Shown: positions 1 to 41,304 of the stretch, one piece after another
How positions within the stretch are numbered: the stretch's first letter is position 1
Layout of the letters: every line of letters starts with the position of its first letter
Source: Clostridium sp.
Lineage (GTDB): Bacteria > Bacillota > Clostridia > Clostridiales > Clostridiaceae
Direction: 5' to 3'
Length of the DNA stretch: 45,067 nucleotides
Assembly (NCBI GenBank): GCA_031292145.1
Contig: JARLHR010000182.1
Coordinates: 1 to 45,067 of the forward strand
Notes under the pieces: generated by a model
The model's input: the letters and a program-made list of their open reading frames with translations, nothing else
The model's database searches: none
What the model was told of the DNA's origin: nothing
Program-made: the position numbers and the translations under genes

Positions 1-18
1 AGAGCTTATCCCTAAATA
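1..18 (+). repeat. IS left terminal inverted repeat
   Basis: Eighteen bases identical to the reverse complement of 903-920. Pairing stops at the next base (G on the left, A on the right). Confidence 0.93.
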
Positions 19-68
19 GTTTTACGTATCATCCGATAATTAAGAAAAAGACATAAAGGGTGATACAA

Positions 69-557
69 ATGATACAAAAGCAATCATGGGAAATAACTGA
101 TGAGTTTTGGGAAGAAGTAAAAGATCTAATACCGGAAAAATACAGAGATCCGAACAAAGAATATAAACGAGCTGCTGGTGGCGGAAGAAAGCCAATAGAT
201 TCAAGAAAAATATTAGAAGCAATTTTTTTTATACTTCGAACAGGTATACAGTGGAAAGCACTACCAAAAGAAAAATTTGGAGCATCTAGTTCAATCCATA
301 GATATTTTATAGCATGGTGTAATGCTGGAGTGTTCGAAAATATGTGGAAACTAGGTCTTGAGCGATATAATGAAATCCAAGGTATTGATTGGGAGTGGCT
401 TAGTATAGATGGAAGTATGAATAAAGCTCCTCTTGCAAAAGAATCTGTTGGTGCAAATCCAACAGATCGGGGGAAAAAATGGGAGCAAAAAGCACATCCT
501 CGTAGACGGCAGAGGAGTACCGTTATCAGTAGTGGTAACAGGAGCAAATCGTCATGA
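69..557 (+). CDS. IS5-family transposase, N-terminal frame (OrfA)
   Basis: Codes for the N-terminal part of a DDE transposase. The ATG at 69 follows AAAGGGTGAT (55-64); an in-frame GTG at 60 is possible but sits inside that ribosome binding site. The frame has the helix-turn-helix-like start and the first catalytic Asp in SIDGS (about codon 115). Family homology ends at DRGK, on the homopolymer run G5A6 (469-479); the remaining codons to 557 are out of frame and look random. Moving one base forward there (net +1) gives DRGKNGSKKH, the expected family sequence, and continues into the second frame. This may be programmed frameshifting, transcriptional slippage on G5A6, or a simple one-base insertion that killed the gene; the sequence alone cannot decide. 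Confidence 0.85.
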   Translation: MIQKQSWEITDEFWEEVKDLIPEKYRDPNKEYKRAAGGGRKPIDSRKILEAIFFILRTGIQWKALPKEKFGASSSIHRYFIAWCNAGVFENMWKLGLERYNEIQGIDWEWLSIDGSMNKAPLAKESVGANPTDRGKKWEQKAHPRRRQRSTVISSGNRSKSS

Positions 558-909
558 TGTATCGCAACTGAAAGAAGTACTAAACTCTATAGTTACAGAT
601 CGTCCAGAACCTACAGCTAAAAACCCTCAAAACCTTTGTGCCGATAAAGGATATACTGGCGAGCCTGCCTTAGAAATCATAGTTCTTAGAGGCTATATTC
701 CTCATGTAGTTTCCCGAGGACAAGAAAAAAAGAATATAGAGAACAATCCAAACTACAAGGCTCGTCGTTGGGTGGTAGAAGTGACTCATTCATGGATGAA
801 TCGCTTTAGAAAATTGCTTGTCCGATTTGAAAAAACAGATGCTTCCTATTTGGGGCTTATTAAGCTTGCATGTGCTTTTATTGCTTTTAGAAAAATAGAA
901 ATTATTTAG
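433..909 (+). CDS. IS5-family transposase, C-terminal frame (OrfB)
   Basis: Second transposase frame, +1 relative to OrfA, overlapping it by about 125 bases. The listed start is a TTG at 433 without a clear ribosome binding site, so it is probably read as a fusion with OrfA rather than alone. It has the second catalytic Asp in GANRHD and the terminal catalytic Glu in RRWVVEVTHSWMNRFRK. Most family members have Arg right after this Glu (ERTHSW); here it is Val, a possible sign of decay. The stop TAG at 907-909 lies inside the right terminal repeat. Confidence 0.85.
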   Translation: MQKNLLVQIQQIGGKNGSKKHILVDGRGVPLSVVVTGANRHDVSQLKEVLNSIVTDRPEPTAKNPQNLCADKGYTGEPALEIIVLRGYIPHVVSRGQEKKNIENNPNYKARRWVVEVTHSWMNRFRKLLVRFEKTDASYLGLIKLACAFIAFRKIEII

Positions 910-3126: not shown

Positions 3127-3182
3127 AGGCACATTAAAAAGATAATAGACTAGAATACTGGTCTATTATTTTTACTGTGCCT
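3127..3182. repeat. Family A palindromic repeat, short copy (A1)
   Basis: Left arm AGGCACATTAAAAAGATAAT and right arm ending TTTTTACTGTGCCT pair over about 22 bp around a 10-base loop. It starts 7 bases after the stop of chemoreceptor 1 and may serve as its terminator. The rest of the gap to glgP (3183-3441) is AT-rich; no convincing promoter was found there. Confidence 0.85.
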
Positions 3183-12186: not shown

Positions 12187-12236
12187 AAAGGGGTATCTCA
12201 TAACAAAGATAAGAATATGAGATATTCCTTTTTATA
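12187..12236 (+). terminator. Rho-independent terminator
   Basis: AAGGGGTATCTCATA (12188-12202) pairs, with two G-T pairs, with TATGAGATATTCCTT, followed by TTTTAT. It closes the unknown gene ending at 12165. Confidence 0.8.
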
Positions 12237-12255
12237 AAATATAAGTGAATTTATG

Positions 12256-12483
12256 AGGCACAATCAAGAAAATAATAGACCAGTATGCTTGTCTATTTCG
12301 CATCATAGAGGAAGCTCGACTCGCATACGCTCGCTGAGTAAGCGATTCACACCAAATCATAGATTTGGGTTCTCTGCTTATCACCAAATTCTACTAATAG
12401 GTCAACTATGAGCAGAATTGAATTCCTTGTCTGATACGAAATATACGGCACATCTTTGGTCTATTATTTTTTTTCATGTGCCT
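12256..12483. repeat. Family A structured element, long copy (A2, 228 bp)
   Basis: Terminal arms AGGCACAATCAAGAAAATAA and a right arm ending TTTTTCATGTGCCT. Inside it are further helices: TAGACCA (12276-12282) with TGGTCTA (12457-12463); ATTTCG/ATCA (12295-12305) with TGAT/CGAAAT (12432-12442); hairpin ACCAAAT (12351-12357) with ATTTGGGT; AATTCT (12387-12392) with AGAATT (12414-12419), enclosing ATAG/CTAT. Copy A3 keeps the same helices with changed pairs. The GC content of the core is higher than the surroundings. The right arm provides the last codons and stop of the minus-strand hutD-like gene. Confidence 0.88.
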
Positions 12484-13096
12484 TACGATAAATTATACTT
12501 GCAATTATATTAGTATTATTTAAACAATTACTAGAAAAAATAAATTCATGCATAGAATTTGCAGTAGTACTGTTGATTAGCAATAAATCATTATTATTAA
12601 CTTTATAGAGTTTATTATTTATATTAACTTTAAAGCTACCATTTATAGCATATAAACAAATTGCTACGAGGTCTTTGTTTAAAGAAGCCTTATATCTAAA
12701 AGTAACTTGTTTTCTAGGGAGAATATTTAAGTGAATTAATTCACCATCATAATTTTCGTTGGTCATTAAATTAAAAACAGAAGCCCTGCCATAAGTTTTA
12801 GTTTTCCAATCGCCCATAAAACTATCTTGATCAAAGGGGTTAAGTAATTTTGCATATTTATTTTCATGGTCAAGGGTTATTTTGCCTTCAGTAACCATGA
12901 ATTTGCGCGAAATATTTGGTAGATTACTAAATGTGGATTCAGGTATATCAATTTTAGCAATGCCAAGTCTCCATAAGAAATTTCTACTTGCATAATCAGA
13001 GTTTAATGGGTATGTTATTAATTCAGTAGCCATACCACCAGACCAAAATGTTGGCTTATAACTTTCTCGCCCTATTAATTCAACATTATAGTTCAT
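12464..13096 (-). CDS. HutD/Ves family cupin-like protein
   Basis: 210-residue protein of the HutD/Ves family, a bicupin-like fold linked in other bacteria to histidine utilisation or to stress; biochemical role unknown. Family signatures: the early WSGGMATELITYP, RLGIAKIDIPESTFSNLPNI, the strand FMVTEGKITLDHE, and the segment DWKTKTYGRASVFNLMTN. The ATG at 13096 follows AAAAGGAGAG. The last five residues (AHEKK) and the TAA stop are encoded by the right arm of repeat A2, so the original C-terminus was probably replaced when the repeat arrived. No hut genes are nearby. Confidence 0.8.
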   Translation of the reverse strand: MNYNVELIGRESYKPTFWSGGMATELITYPLNSDYASRNFLWRLGIAKIDIPESTFSNLPNISRKFMVTEGKITLDHENKYAKLLNPFDQDSFMGDWKTKTYGRASVFNLMTNENYDGELIHLNILPRKQVTFRYKASLNKDLVAICLYAINGSFKVNINNKLYKVNNNDLLLINSTTANSMHEFIFSSNCLNNTNIIASIIYRKAHEKK

Positions 13097-13215
13097 AAAT
13101 TACTCTCCTTTTATTTGAAATATATTTTACATTCGGTATATTAAAAGATATATGTATAATTGATGTGGTTAAGTACAATATAACATATAATTAATTCCCA
13201 ATCATATGTTAGCTT

Positions 13216-13275
13216 AGGCACATGAAAGAACATAATAGGCAAGCATATTGGTCTATTATGTTCTTGATTGTGCCT
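13216..13275. repeat. Family A palindromic repeat, short copy (A4)
   Basis: 60-bp hairpin, AGGCACATGAAAGAACATAA paired with TTATGTTCTTGATTGTGCCT. AACATAATAG/CTATTATGTT here replaces AAAATAATAG of other copies, both strands changed together. It lies in the 367-base gap between divergent genes at 13096 and 13464; the remainder is AT-rich without an obvious promoter. Confidence 0.87.
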
Positions 13276-13463
13276 CTATAGCATTCAGGATTACTATTAT
13301 TTTAGATAAAATAATATAGATAGTAACATTTACTTAGTAAAGTTATAATTGGTATATAAATAATTATACAACAAAGATTTAAAAATCATTGATGTAATTA
13401 TGAAATTTTATAAAAAATTTAATTACAATTATTATAAAAAATATGATTATAGGGGCTGACATT

Positions 13464-14048
13464 ATGGAATGTTTTAATATAAAAAAAATATTAAGAAAAG
13501 AAATTTTAGAGAAACGCGAAAATATAGATATAACTATAAAGAAAAAGATGGATAAGGAAATATTAAATAGATTTTATGAAAGCAAGTATTATAATGAAGC
13601 AAGAAATGTTTTCATTTATATATCATATGGTTCGGAAATAGATACTAAAGATATAATAAACAAGGCTTTAAAAGAGAATAAAAGAATTTATGTGCCAAGA
13701 ACTGAATTCAAAACTAGAATCATGGATGCAGTAGAAATATCATCATTGGATAAATTGATTGAAAATTCATATGGAATTTTGGAACCATCAGAAAATGAAC
13801 CACATATTGATCCTAACGGATTGGATCTGATTTTAGTCCCGGGAGTAGCTTTTGATAGAAATGGTGGAAGAATGGGATATGGTGCAGGATTTTATGATAG
13901 ATATTTTAAGAAAATTAATAGCGACAACATAAAAAGAATCACAAAATTAGCTTTAGCTTATGATTTCCAAGTAATAGGTGAAGTTCCAATGGAGGAATTG
14001 GATATTCCTGTAGATTACATAATAACTGAAAAAGAATTTATAGATTAA
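13464..14048 (+). CDS. 5-formyltetrahydrofolate cyclo-ligase
   Basis: 194-residue enzyme that converts 5-formyl-THF to 5,10-methenyl-THF with ATP, recycling folate in the cytoplasm. The C-terminal signature is complete: GVAFDRNGGRMGYGAGFYDR at about 130-149, then the LALAYDFQ and P-x-D-x-x-V/I-D-Y-I-I-T-E end. The N-terminal K-x-x-L-R-K-E-I-L-E-K-R motif for substrate and ATP binding is present. The ATG at 13464 follows AGGGGC (13451-13456); the in-frame ATG at 13443 has no ribosome binding site. It is followed after 45 bases by the large coiled-coil gene in the same direction, possibly co-transcribed. Confidence 0.93.
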   Translation: MECFNIKKILRKEILEKRENIDITIKKKMDKEILNRFYESKYYNEARNVFIYISYGSEIDTKDIINKALKENKRIYVPRTEFKTRIMDAVEISSLDKLIENSYGILEPSENEPHIDPNGLDLILVPGVAFDRNGGRMGYGAGFYDRYFKKINSDNIKRITKLALAYDFQVIGEVPMEELDIPVDYIITEKEFID

Positions 14049-14093
14049 ATTTTGAATAATAATTCAGAATTCATATTCTCGGGGGGAGAATTT

Positions 14094-16736
14094 ATGGAAT
14101 ATAATGAAAGCAATTTTTTTTACCTGAAAAATACGAGTATTGAAAAATACTATGAAGCGTTGGTAAGAGCAGAGCATGTGTGTGAATACTTCCCTATAGT
14201 AACAAAGATTATTGCTAGGAAAGTAATTGAAGCGTTTTTAAAAGATATTGCAGAGAAATATGATATGGAATCAAATGTAGCAGCATGGCAGTTGGTTAAT
14301 AATATTAAACTCAGTCAAAAGTTTTCTTTGCCAGAAGAAATTTATAAGTATATTGAAATCATATTAGTTAATGCATATGAACACTCTTCATATAATCATA
14401 AAATAAAGAGAATATCTAAACATCCTATAGAAATTTTAGAAACAGCTCATAATGTTTTTTGTTGGTATTTAAATATAACAGAAAACCAATTAATAATACC
14501 AGCTAAAAACTTAAACTTTAAAGCACCTAGTACTATTGAATATATGCAAAAAGAAATTATTAGAATTAATAATGAGCTAATATTTAAGGAAAATGAAATT
14601 AATAATCTTAGACAAAAGCTCATTGAACAAGCCAGCCACTCAACGAATATAAGTGATATAAACAACACTATAATAGCTGTAAAAGAAGAAAAAGCCTATT
14701 TGGAAAAAATGCAGATAATATTAAATCAAAAAATTGAAGAACAAAAAAAACAAGTATTATATACAGAAAAAGAGTATAGCACTTATATAAAGAAATTTGA
14801 TAATTTAAGTGAAAAATGTAATGAGAGTCAGGAGCTGATTTTTGGAAAGGAAAGTCAGTTGGTTAAATCAGAAATACAGAAACAGGAAGTAAGGGATTTA
14901 ATTAATAAATTAGAGGAACAAGATGATTCAATAAAAAGAATCGAACAGGATCTTGAAGATGAATTGAATATATTAAGGAAAGCTTATGAAAATTTAGTGG
15001 ATTTAATCAAAAAATATGAGGATAATTTAGAAACAATAGAGTTTTCATATGATAAGGATTTACAAAAGATATTAGAAATTCAACAAAAGAATATAATGAT
15101 TAAAATAAACTTTGAGGATAGAATATTTAATGAAAATATACTAGCTTATTCACAAAATATAGTGGAAGCAAAGAAAAGAGCACTTATTTTTAAAGAAATA
15201 TTAAATGATCAAATTAATAAAGAAATTAAATATGAAATACTTTATAAAGGTTTTTTAAACTTAGCTGGAAAAGAGTTGAGAATAATATACATACTTGCTA
15301 ATAGCATCAACACGACATTCAATTTACTAGGCAAGTCCAAGGAATTACCATCAAGATCTATTGAAGATAAGTTTTTAGAACTAATAAATAGAAGACTAGA
15401 CGAATTAAAGAACGTAAACGATGATGAAATTAGGTTAATTATATATTATGAATTAATAAAATTAGCTGAAATTTCTTCAGGAAAAGTATATAATAGAAAA
15501 CATTTTATACAAGCCTTAGATGGGGTTGTAGATAATGCGTATAAGTTTTTATCAAACAAGATAGATTTCAATGGTAGAATTAATAAAATAGATGCAATAG
15601 CTGAATATTACTTAAAAAAAATAATTGCCATTTTAAAGAGTAGAAATTCAGGTGTGCAGATTGGTAGCGAATTAGTTCATAGGATTTGTAAAAATATTAC
15701 GGAACTGAGGGACAACGGTGAAAATGTGGTTAAAAAGAAAATATATTATGGAAAATTTGATTTGGATACCATGTCTGAGGAGATGATTAAAAGTGCTATA
15801 AAAATTCATCCGTTTGAATTTTTATCAATAATGATATCCCTGGGAAGTAGTGCTGCATACGCTGAGTTTTATGCTATTATATTTAGAATATATAATTTAA
15901 TAGAAAAAAGATTTTCATTTAATGAAAGAGAAGAAACTTTTGTTGAAGGTCTTCCCAATGAATATTTTATGATTTTAATGTTTTTGTCTAGTAAAGATGA
16001 TTTAATGAATGAAAAACTGCAAGAAGGATTATTACCATTATTGATAATGGAAATAGTAAATATAGAGTTAATATTACCTAATGAAATTGTTAAATTAGAA
16101 AGTTATAAGGAAATGATTAACCTATGGAAGCAGAAGCAGCACAAATATAGTGATATTTATATTGAAAAAGAAGAAAAAGAAAATGAACTTAAGTTATTAA
16201 TTCAGGAAAAACAGATGTTAGAAGTTAATCATAATAAATTGCTAAACAATCATGATGCATTTACAGAAAAATATAGAAGTTATGAAGAAGAATTTAAAAA
16301 TATTATAATAAATTCTGATAAAAGGGTATTATTGCAATCATTTAGAAATTACTATGAACTTCGAAACAAAAAAGAAGTGGCTGAAAAGAATATTAATGAA
16401 TCTAAAGACAAATTTGGAGCATTTAAAAGCATGTTTTCTCCAGGAGTATGGAAAGAAAAGGCCAGCAGATTTGTTAGTGAATCAAATATGCTGGAAGCGG
16501 AGAAGTTACTTATTGAAGAAGCAAAACAAAAACCATATTTCCAAAAAGAGTATTTGGTTTTTGAAGAATTAGAAGATCAGATTGAAAAAATTAAAAAGTT
16601 AATAAATAAAAGTGAGGAAGATGTTAAAAATAAGAACTTAGTAATTGAGAATATCATGGGAAAAATAAGTAAAATAGATAAACAACTTAATACAATAAAA
16701 GATATTTATATCGATATAGAAGATGTATATTACTAG
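14094..16736 (+). CDS. Large coiled-coil protein of unknown function with DUF4145-like N-terminus
   Basis: 880 residues from the ATG at 14094, chosen for the GGGGGGAG (14081-14088) in front of it; an earlier TTG at 14052 lacks one. I do not recognise the whole protein. Residues about 15-135 form a helical unit with ARKVIEAFLKDIAEKYDM, then AWQLVNNIKL, then VNAYEHSSY and HPIEILETAHNVFCWYL, resembling DUF4145/HsdR N-terminal helical domains (HEPN-like). Residues 150-330 and 690-870 are long Glu/Lys-rich coiled coils; a helical middle (about 360-660) has no known motif. No Walker A, nuclease or membrane motif is visible. It may be an architectural or sensor component; its family-A repeat neighbours give no clue. 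The stop overlaps a solo repeat arm. Confidence 0.8.
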   Translation: MEYNESNFFYLKNTSIEKYYEALVRAEHVCEYFPIVTKIIARKVIEAFLKDIAEKYDMESNVAAWQLVNNIKLSQKFSLPEEIYKYIEIILVNAYEHSSYNHKIKRISKHPIEILETAHNVFCWYLNITENQLIIPAKNLNFKAPSTIEYMQKEIIRINNELIFKENEINNLRQKLIEQASHSTNISDINNTIIAVKEEKAYLEKMQIILNQKIEEQKKQVLYTEKEYSTYIKKFDNLSEKCNESQELIFGKESQLVKSEIQKQEVRDLINKLEEQDDSIKRIEQDLEDELNILRKAYENLVDLIKKYEDNLETIEFSYDKDLQKILEIQQKNIMIKINFEDRIFNENILAYSQNIVEAKKRALIFKEILNDQINKEIKYEILYKGFLNLAGKELRIIYILANSINTTFNLLGKSKELPSRSIEDKFLELINRRLDELKNVNDDEIRLIIYYELIKLAEISSGKVYNRKHFIQALDGVVDNAYKFLSNKIDFNGRINKIDAIAEYYLKKIIAILKSRNSGVQIGSELVHRICKNITELRDNGENVVKKKIYYGKFDLDTMSEEMIKSAIKIHPFEFLSIMISLGSSAAYAEFYAIIFRIYNLIEKRFSFNEREETFVEGLPNEYFMILMFLSSKDDLMNEKLQEGLLPLLIMEIVNIELILPNEIVKLESYKEMINLWKQKQHKYSDIYIEKEEKENELKLLIQEKQMLEVNHNKLLNNHDAFTEKYRSYEEEFKNIIINSDKRVLLQSFRNYYELRNKKEVAEKNINESKDKFGAFKSMFSPGVWKEKASRFVSESNMLEAEKLLIEEAKQKPYFQKEYLVFEELEDQIEKIKKLINKSEEDVKNKNLVIENIMGKISKIDKQLNTIKDIYIDIEDVYY

Positions 16737-16758
16737 GGCATATTCAAGAAAATAATAA
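16735..16758 (+). repeat. Family A solo left arm (A5)
   Basis: GGGCATATTCAAGAAAATAA begins on the stop codon of the coiled-coil gene and matches the left arm of the family, but no right arm follows before the full copy A3 starts at 16808. It is probably the remnant of a deleted element. Confidence 0.65.
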
Positions 16759-16807
16759 TTTATATACCTAGTAGAAAATTTTGATGTATAATTAAATTAT
16801 ATTCTTT

Positions 16808-17036
16808 AGGCACATTCAAGAAAATAACAAGTCCATCTGCCAAGCCTATTTTCCATCAGGGGAAGCTCGATTCGCATACGCTCACTGAGTAAGCGATTCA
16901 CACCAAATCATAGATTTGGGTTCACTGCTCACGTCAGCAGATTGCCCTAATAGGCTCGCTATGAGACCAATCCGTTTCCTTGCCTGATGAAAAATAATCA
17001 TGGCATTTTGGACTTGTTATTTTCATTCATGTGCCT
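16808..17036. repeat. Family A structured element, long copy (A3, 229 bp)
   Basis: Arms AGGCACATTCAAGAAAATAA and TTATTTTCATTCATGTGCCT. The internal core is similar to A2 (for example CGCATACGCT, GAGTAAGCGATTCACACCAA, TAATAGG). Helices keep their place with changed pairs: CAAGTCCA (16828-16835) with TGGACTTG (17009-17016); ATTTT and CATCAGG (16848-16860) with CCTGATG and AAAAT (16983-16995); GATTG (16940-16944) with CAATC (16968-16972) around ATAG/CTAT. It ends 15 bases before the ribosome binding site of the metY-like gene, so it is in that gene's leader or promoter region. Confidence 0.88.
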
Positions 17037-17065
17037 TATTTAAAAACATTAGGAGGCTATATATT

Positions 17066-18331
17066 ATGAGAATTGAAACAAAATGCTTGCATGAGGGATA
17101 TAAACCTAAAAATGGAGAACCGGTAGCACTACCAATATATCAAAGTACAACTTACAGATATGACTCTACAGAAAAGATAGGAGAACTATTTGATCTAGTT
17201 GCTGATGGTCATATGTATTCTCGTATTTCAAATCCTACAGTTGGGGCTGTTGAAGCTAAAATTGCAGCATTGGAAGGCGGGATTGGTGCCCTTTGCACAA
17301 CTTCAGGTCAAGCTGCAGTATTAATAAGTGTACTAAATATATTAAATGCTGGGGATCACATAGTAAGTGCTGCTGCTATATATGGGGGAACAATTAATCT
17401 TTTTGCAGTTACACTTAAAAAATTTGGGATAGAATGTACTTTTGTAGATGCAGAGGCTTCAGAAGAAGAAATACAGAAAGCATTTAAACCTAATACAAAA
17501 ATGGTTTATGGGGAGACTATTGCGAATCCTGCAATTTCCATATTTGATATTGAGAAATTTGCCGATATTGCGCATAAAAATAATGTTCCACTTATTGTTG
17601 ATAATACATTTGCTACTCCTATTCTTTGTAGACCAATGGAATTTGGTGCGGACATAGTTATTCATTCAACAAGCAAGTATATGGATGGTCATGCAGTGCA
17701 GCTTGGGGGAGTTATTGTTGATAGTGGAAATTTTGATTGGACAAATGGTAAGTTTAAAGAATTTACAGAACCAGATGAATCTTATCATGGAATTGTATAT
17801 ACTAAACAGTTTGGTAAAGCTGCGTACATAACAAAGGCAAGAGTTCAGCTTATGAGAGATTTAGGTGCATATCCATCTGCAAATGCTGCATTTCTTTTAA
17901 ATTTAGGACTTGAAACCCTTCCAGTTAGAATGGAAAAACATTGTGGAAATGCAGAAAAAGTAGCACAGTTGTTAAATGAAAGCGATAAAGTTGAATTTGT
18001 AAATTATCCAACTATAGAAGGAAATAAATATAGAGAGCTAGCTAAAAAATATCTACCAAACGGATGCAGTGGAGTAATTTCATTTTCAATTAAAGGAAGT
18101 CGGGAAAATGCAATTAGATTTATGGATAGCTTAAAATTAGCAGAAAATGTAGTTCATGTTGCCTACTGCCGTACATCAGTACTTCATCCAGCAAGTGCAA
18201 CCCATCGTCAGCTTTCAGATGATCAATTAGTAGCTGCTGGCATAACACCAGGTCTTATAAGATTATCAATAGGTCTTGAAAATGTTGAAGACATAATAGA
18301 AGATGTGAAACAAGCATTGGAACAAGTTTAA
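17066..18331 (+). CDS. metY: O-acetylhomoserine sulfhydrylase (aminocarboxypropyltransferase)
   Basis: 421-residue PLP enzyme of the Cys/Met metabolism class that makes homocysteine from O-acetylhomoserine and sulfide. Landmarks: substrate/PLP region [36 protein letters not shown], and the PLP Lys in [11 protein letters not shown] (K204). The length of about 420 and the stretch [14 protein letters not shown] point to MetY rather than MetB or MetC. The ATG at 17066 is preceded by AGGAGG (17051-17056); an open frame to 17000 runs back into repeat A3 and is not coding. No S-box or T-box was found in front; the gap is filled by repeat A3. Confidence 0.94.
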
Positions 18332-25985: not shown

Positions 25986-26084
25986 AGGCACATGAAAGAA
26001 AATAACAAGTTCAAAATGCCATGTGTAGATGTTAATATGGAAAATATGCTGGTAGATTGCCTTGTTAATTTTTTGAATGAGCCT
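25986..26084. repeat. Family A repeat, medium copy (A8, 99 bp)
   Basis: AGGCACATGAAAGAAAATAA with CAAG (left) and CTTGTTAATTTTTTGAATGA with GCCT (right) around about 45 bases that lack the conserved core of A2/A3. It lies upstream of ispF. Confidence 0.82.
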
Positions 26085-28396: not shown

Positions 28397-28831
28397 AAAG
28401 GCATTTAACCTCCTTCTATTTCAATCAGAATAACATTCTTTTATCATTATATGCTAAAGTTCAATAAAAACTACATGGAGTTATATATTTACTAGCAAAG
28501 TATAAATTTTTTAAACTTAAAAATAATATGAGACACAATCAAAAAAAATATACATTGCATCTTTGGTCTATTATTTTCTTTTATGTGCTAAAATCTCAGA
28601 TTAAGGATTATAATAACCAATTGTAAATTATGCTTTTTAAAATTATTTATTATAAGAATAAGTTCATTAAAAGAGTAGCATAATATAAAATAGTACAACT
28701 TATTAACATTATCAACAGGAGGCTGTGGATAACATGTTATAAAAATGTTAATATACAAAATATTACATGTGGAATTTGTGAATATATATTAAATTAAGTC
28801 ACAAAATGTATAAATTTAAGGAGGCAGTTAT
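28397..28831. other. Divergent intergenic region with repeat A9 and DnaA-box-like sites
   Basis: 435 bases between the deacetylase and the DUF3298 gene. It holds repeat A9 (28530-28589) and an inverted pair, TTATCAACA (28709-28717, one mismatch) and TGTGGATAA (28724-28732, exact DnaA box). A further exact TTATCCACA lies in the following gene at 28891-28899. An AGGAGG at 28717-28722 is followed by ATG TTA TAA (28734-28742), a two-codon frame. The rest is AT-rich. Confidence 0.55.
28530..28589. repeat. Family A deletion derivative (A9)
   Basis: Left arm GAGACACAATCAAAAAAAAT and right part CATCTTTGGTCTATTATTTT ending TTTATGTGCT. The right part, including CATCTTTGG inside the arm, matches A2 closely; the core is missing. 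Confidence 0.75.
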
Positions 28832-41216: not shown

Positions 41217-41266
41217 AGGCATATGAAAGAAAATAGCATGCTGACTTGTTATTTTCTTTCATATGC
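41217..41266. repeat. Family A palindromic repeat, short copy (A11)
   Basis: AGGCATATGAAAGAAAATA and TATTTTCTTTCATATGC pair almost perfectly. GGCATAT/ATATGC replaces GGCACAT/ATGTGCC of other copies, changed on both arms. It lies between the AraC-type regulator and the ABC exporter, 24 bases before the latter's ribosome binding site. Confidence 0.87.
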
Positions 41267-41304
41267 ATAACAAGGTAAAAATAAAAAATAAGGAGGCAGG
41301 GTTA

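Follow-up and report, generated by a model that had tools for sequence, protein, structure and literature searches.

A gene-less palindromic repeat family of Clostridium whose arms covary without the G·T preference of a folded RNA strand

Related repeats and transposable elements

BOX elements are modular repeats in which an optional inner unit can be in tandem. A preference for TWA targets belongs to PIF/Harbinger and IS5-type elements, for the latter with details at the level of the IS5 subgroups. Bacterial MITEs (Correia/NEMIS, RUP, ERIC/RU-1), as presented in passages of a review (PMC2229807), are 100-200 bp long and A+T-rich, have terminal inverted repeats and a target duplication, lie mainly between genes and form long stem-loops; the family described below resembles them in these respects. 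According to the same passages, links to a partner were either not sought or not found for bacterial repeats, RUP excepted, and the main text of that review has no mention of Clostridium. A 3-bp target duplication is stated for PIF/Harbinger in part of another paper (PMC2213677). Arm-to-arm copying at imperfect palindromes is given in parts of the literature as a known mutational route, and sections of one study (PMC8794818) propose that it maintains hairpins.

The DNA analysed here, referred to as the window, is a stretch of 45,067 nt from a Clostridium genome. Two of its elements, A2 (12256..12483, + strand) and A3 (16808..17036, + strand), are full elements with a nested module, and both are copies of a small mobile DNA element that carries no gene and occurs very frequently in its own Clostridium genome. 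The family itself is new, its class is that of the bacterial MITEs, and its nesting is unusually rich; no published description of it was found in the literature searched, which takes in a minority of the subscription journals.

Structure of the A2 and A3 elements

The element proper runs from GG to CC, at 12257-12482 in A2 and 16809-17035 in A3, and the outer bases are part of a 3-bp target repeat. A3 is flanked by TTA at both ends (16806-16808 and 17036-17038). The flanks of A2 are TGA (12254-12256) and TTA (12483-12485), a one-base mismatch between the target repeats. Terminal inverted repeats (GGCACA...TGTGCC) are present; A3 has 28-nt arms (89%) and A2 has 27-nt arms (85%). Folded as RNA, A3 reaches -90.2 kcal/mol (z -10.2 against dinucleotide shuffles) and A2 -79.0 kcal/mol (z -7.8 against the same type of shuffle); the reverse strand of A3 folded as DNA gives z -9.3. 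An earlier note on this DNA had described A2 and A3 as sharing a nested fold with paired differences, and these are present in the sequence at the positions given above. The paired differences mark two subfamilies: CAAGTCC...GGACTTG, to which A3 belongs (74 of 123 cores), and TAGACC...GGTCTA, to which A2 belongs (25 of 123). The hairpin ACCAAAT/ATTTGGGT, which the note had called constant, turned out to lie outside the core, in a nested repeat that only some copies have.

The core is 158 nt long and largely palindromic, and A2 and A3 are cores carrying module M, a hairpin of ~70 bp with approximate limits at 12307..12378 (+) in A2 and 16858..16931 (+) in A3. Pairwise alignment of the two elements with similar M-free copies gives a net insert of ~68 bp. 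Size classes of the family lie near 58, 159, 199, 227 and 267 nt. Among 126 full copies, 72 scored as having no module, 28 carry M, 13 carry module N in the left arm and 6 an inverted N in the right arm; the rest have M with N (5), M with a right-arm N (1) or N in both arms (1). The motif test behind these figures undercounts M, as some of the 72 copies have a diverged M (for example, those of 226 nt and 232 nt).

Module M, with its constant hairpin CCAAATCATAGATTTGG, is also found alone, outside the outer element: five tandem units with 68-bp spacing occur at one locus (L076), and two units between tRNA genes at another (L078). A 28-base M pattern was matched in 27 of 68 genus genomes, copies within the element counted, and in 23 stretches of a one-per-species collection, all from Clostridium or unnamed Bacillota. 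As a stand-alone Clostridium repeat (L076, L105, L061, L078), M is sometimes in tandem, at 68- or 72-bp spacing, and sometimes lies at the end of a gene or flanked by tRNA genes. The hairpin module N, ~40 bp long (GCAGCATAGCTGC), occupies the left arm in some copies, whereas in others it lies in the right arm in inverted orientation (L151, L161, L162, L167 and L023, L034, L035). A sister family of ~156 bp was also seen, whose matching tips are different (GGGAGT...ACTCCC and a GATC-type) but whose inner layout is similar (L018:1829-1984, L022:1098-1253, L144:2712-2867).

Copy number and distribution

Members of the family are 42-300 bp long, carry no transposase gene and are dispersed in many copies. 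A BLAST search with A3 of the genome it comes from (6.34 Mb, 282 contigs) gave at least 99 pieces (40 of the 426 candidates scored), and the end motif AGGCACATGAAAGAAAATAA gave 277+271 matches there with up to 3 mismatches, against 0+1 for the control. A3 was matched in 16 of the 59 genomes searched, its own included, every one of them in the same genus. With up to 2 mismatches, the end motif has at least one match in 29 of 68 genus genomes and at least ten in 18 of 68 (own included); the number of matches, of which a single copy yields one or two, is 355 in the own genome, 425 in G062, 250 in G071 and 162 in G030. The plasmid and phage collections searched for the family gave no match. Searches of IMG/VR returned 0 and 2 stretches, and the two records have the same surroundings; each contains a TAA/TAA-flanked copy, and a gene for a serine-type recombinase is present in the longer record.

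Several reduced copies accompany A2 and A3 in the window. A short 58-nt copy consists of the outer hairpin only (13217..13274, - strand), and a short hairpin copy at 3127..3182, with no strand assigned, has only the outer stem and a diverged end. A partial copy of 99 nt has one exact and one diverged end (25986..26084, - strand); a decayed short copy lies at 28532..28589 (+), and a short copy with a GGCATA-type end at 41217..41268 (+). A left-end remnant (16736..16775, right limit approximate, +) directly follows the gene upstream of A3; it is gapped in all five aligned relatives, two of which (L190, L192) have other family-like fragments further upstream. At the contig edge, window positions 1-909 hold an IS in which two frames overlap, with a DDE_Tnp_1 match at 472-876; its ends, AGAGCTTATCCCTAAATA, are unrelated to the GGCACA family.

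Target sites and gene context

Target duplication was scored in 106 of 125 copies, those that have GG...CC ends and flanks distinct from one another. The flanking 3-mers are identical in 78 of them (43 TAA, 35 TTA), against 43.9 after shuffling, and non-identical in the other 28; target repeats of other lengths, including 2- and 4-mers, showed no excess in the same copies. The A3 site is empty in all five aligned relatives (L190-L194). At the position of A2, comparison by eye found the copy absent in 12 of 12 relatives, and the same gap holds other, shorter family copies in G073 (L331) and G028 (L330).

Counting an overlap of half or more as lying inside an ORF (at least 90 codons), none of 41 full copies and 1 of 19 short copies are mostly inside an ORF, versus 279 of 400 random points; A2 overlaps a gene end nonetheless. 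It lies between convergent genes, and its right end supplies the last residues, KAHEKK, and the stop codon of a HutD-like gene (12464-13096, - strand). Between co-oriented genes, 14 full copies are oriented with the genes and 13 against them, and short copies 4 and 5, respectively; the gene-context count covers the full copies with 600 bp of flank, 41 of 126, the other 85 having less.

A3 lies between a TATAAT-like box, present in four of the five aligned relatives, and the ribosome-binding site of metY, and, as far as this sequence layout tells, is probably transcribed in the metY leader. The box was not flagged by a generic promoter scan. In G062, G005, G022 and G004 (L193, L196-L198), the matched metY start is preceded by a SAM riboswitch at a distance of 70-130 bp. 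The own metY leader (window 17039-17066 and the sequence upstream) has A3 in place of a SAM riboswitch, and no Rfam match occurs in the window.

Covariation of the two arms

Covariation was assessed by a tree-based count of co-changes, using a FastTree tree and shuffled as well as slid partners, over 123 distinct cores from 126 genus copies (three merged or dropped). A consensus fold was used because RNAalifold predicted few pairs for the complete set of copies. Changes that affect both partners of a pair on a single branch number 71, compared to a shuffled mean of 14.5 (maximum 30 in 500 shuffles), and 50 of these two-sided changes lead from one Watson-Crick pair to another, compared to a mean of 2.4 (largest 11). 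When the partner is slid by 1-3 columns, 10-24 two-sided changes remain, of which 0-3 are Watson-Crick to Watson-Crick. The compensatory changes that the earlier note had noticed between A2 and A3 are thus real and significant well beyond these two copies. They occur in 26 of 54 pairs and extend over the entire stem and the inner hairpin, beyond the ends. Paired columns undergo 5.9 changes each versus 8.5 for unpaired ones (p 0.03), and there may be some constraint on the stem.

The tips covary as well. In 137 of 206 copies the two ends carry the same 6-nt tip, against 94.2 after shuffling. Among the 92 copies with a non-standard tip, 23 carry the same tip at both ends and 69 have unlike ends.

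Folded RNA or DNA

A strand that acts as a folded molecule tolerates G·T, and A·C is the mirror image of this; the two kinds of pair-breaking change were compared on a MAFFT alignment and a predicted fold. Across the 123 cores taken jointly, 100 single pair-breaking events are G·T and 147 are A·C. By subfamily, the events number 48 G·T vs 83 A·C and 19 vs 23, and the pair-breaking cells 96 vs 151 and 20 vs 30, or 43 vs 57 and 20 vs 21 with a maximum of two per pair; 24 of the 123 cores are left out of the subfamily tests and included in the joint count. The SAM riboswitches of the genus, taken through the same procedure as a control, gave 22 G·T and 0 A·C events (49 vs 0 cells), and 36 G·T and 0 A·C cells with an RNAalifold fold; this control consists of the best-scoring 30 loci, a choice that favours G·T over A·C. 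Since there is no G·T excess, the + strand is not favoured as the folded molecule. The excess of A·C over G·T (p 0.003 in the joint set) is, on the other strand, a weak excess of G·T, and that strand may be under weak constraint. The two arms coevolve, yet the preference for G·T expected from a folded RNA strand is absent, a pattern that points to DNA.

Search for an autonomous partner

No autonomous element with the same ends was found among the loci examined. For PF01609 (DDE_Tnp_1), the 36 loci examined (all 6 in the own genome and 30 of 106 matches in 12 relatives) contain no accepted partner: 35 are without an inverted end pair around the gene, and L079 is the sole locus with family ends. 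In the relatives' DDE_Tnp_1 loci, isolated family-like ends (up to 4 mismatches) occur at 6 of 30, none as an inverted pair. PF13359 (DDE_Tnp_4) was found in 0 of 13 genomes. The transposase search in relatives covered these two Pfam families, and no transposase related to IS5 or PIF-Harbinger was found in them between matching terminal inverted repeats. The own genome also has nine stretches with an inverted end pair 0.9-2.7 kb apart. ORFs were listed in all nine, one of which has no ORF of 100 aa, and the 13 ORF proteins scanned, a set that excludes a few smaller or overlapping ORFs, contain no transposase domain; three of the 13 match no family at all.

The family ends at L079 flank a 437-aa IS4-type transposase, but the insertion sequence has ends of its own, CAATGTCATT..., and its homologue at L109 (61% identical, 1296-2999) sits in an unrelated palindrome, so the partner role was rejected. 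The L079 IS (987-2690, G000:C75; DDE_Tnp_1) is interpreted as having inserted into the hairpin of a short family copy, where it occupies the loop. Hairpins may be the target of IS4-type IS of the L079/L109 type.

Mechanism and alternative explanations

The observations as a whole are best explained, with good confidence, by non-autonomous MITE-like elements that are mobilized by a DDE-type transposase in trans and whose arms are held in register with each other as DNA. Terminal inverted repeats, a 3-bp TWA duplication and the lack of a gene together argue for a DDE-type transposase acting in trans, which is most likely the mover; the TWA target preference presumably links it to IS5/PIF-Harbinger-type enzymes. 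Such a trans-acting transposase would have inserted A2 and A3 and would since have been lost or have escaped recognition. The missing partner weakens the assignment of the transposase more than the MITE class, because for bacterial repeats other than RUP such links were not sought or not found (PMC2229807). A MITE was among the origins that the earlier note had offered, and the terminal inverted repeats, the 3-bp target duplication, the many gene-less copies and the empty A3 site all fit it.

The same note had also argued from the changes on both strands that a folded RNA or single-stranded DNA is under selection. A structured non-coding or leader RNA, made from the + strand of the element and selected for its fold, would account for the very stable folding, the significant covariation and the place of A3 between a TATAAT-like box and the metY ribosome-binding site, where it is probably transcribed. 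The pair-breaking changes, however, have no G·T bias, whereas the SAM riboswitches have no A·C at all; the copies show no strand bias with respect to genes (14 vs 13), and the metY site is element-free in all five aligned relatives. No curated family matches either: Rfam gave nothing at the gathering score over the window and nothing at E <=5 over 12200-17100, which agrees with the note's remark that the fold was not recognised as a known RNA class. An RNA under selection is accordingly extremely unlikely. Single-stranded hairpins moved by an HUH enzyme (IS200/IS605, REP/RAYT-like) would suit the imperfect palindromes, the intergenic location and the high copy number. To our knowledge, HUH enzymes of these groups make no target duplication, and here a 3-bp duplication is present together with terminal inverted repeats; use of one fixed strand should moreover favour G·T over A·C, contrary to the counts, and the same strand symmetry counters a single-stranded DNA substrate, as the note had envisaged, if it is formed from one fixed strand. 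We consider this origin very improbable. Selection on a fold, the note's reading of the both-strand changes, is one explanation among others: template switching during replication has been proposed, in sections of PMC8794818, to give the same pattern.

What keeps the arms of the mobile element matched as DNA is a narrower matter, and perhaps template switching does so; we give it only an intermediate place in the account. Intrastrand template switching (quasipalindrome correction) would carry a mutation from one arm into the other, or else a requirement for a cruciform or for transposase pairing would act alike on both strands. Under template switching, G·T and A·C intermediates should be similarly frequent and the tips should co-vary, and selection on the double-stranded form predicts much the same. 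We propose only tentatively that the elements evolve by arm-to-arm copying, which would keep the palindromes near-perfect and bring in changes, those of the recognised tips included (from GGCACA to GGCATA, GGGACA or GGGAGT), at both ends simultaneously. The same mobile element could also owe its matching arms to selection that favours a cruciform, or the same transposase site at either end, as paired columns change less than unpaired ones, the tips co-vary and the near parity of A·C and G·T is just as compatible with double-stranded selection; the occurrence of two-sided changes in 26 of 54 pairs, all along the stem and in the inner hairpin, speaks against it, and we regard this explanation as plausible though short of probable.

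Significance and comparison with known systems

The family shows clearly that covariation, even when statistically strong, does not imply a functional RNA. Comparing the numbers of G·T and A·C intermediates, alongside a riboswitch control, offers a simple check for RNA-discovery pipelines on palindrome-rich genomes. The elements form a large repeat family, common in several Clostridium genomes, that sits at gene ends and in leaders and has other repeats nested inside. If arm-to-arm copying is true, a mutational process alone would make RNA-like covariation across a genus, and a transposon could acquire new ends without passing through a defective state.

From the bacterial MITEs covered in the review passages (PMC2229807) the family differs in sequence, host and nested modules, and its target is a 3-bp TTA/TAA where those passages name a terminal TA motif. 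Its interspersed copies and modular build liken it to the BOX elements of Streptococcus pneumoniae (PMC3049150), but its frame is a palindrome with terminal inverted repeats and a target duplication, and its inner module also occurs alone in other contexts. With PIF/Harbinger and IS5-type elements (PMC4482050, PMC2213677) the family shares the 3-bp target duplication, stated for PIF/Harbinger in PMC2213677; unlike those elements, the family has no related transposase beside its ends in the loci examined. Its compensatory changes resemble the template-switch maintenance of hairpins set out in sections of PMC8794818, where they are attributed to the copying of one arm. That study concerns RNA genes, in which G-U or U-G pairs were affected by 78.5% of the two-step changes according to the same sections, whereas in the Clostridium elements A·C equals or exceeds G·T in frequency.
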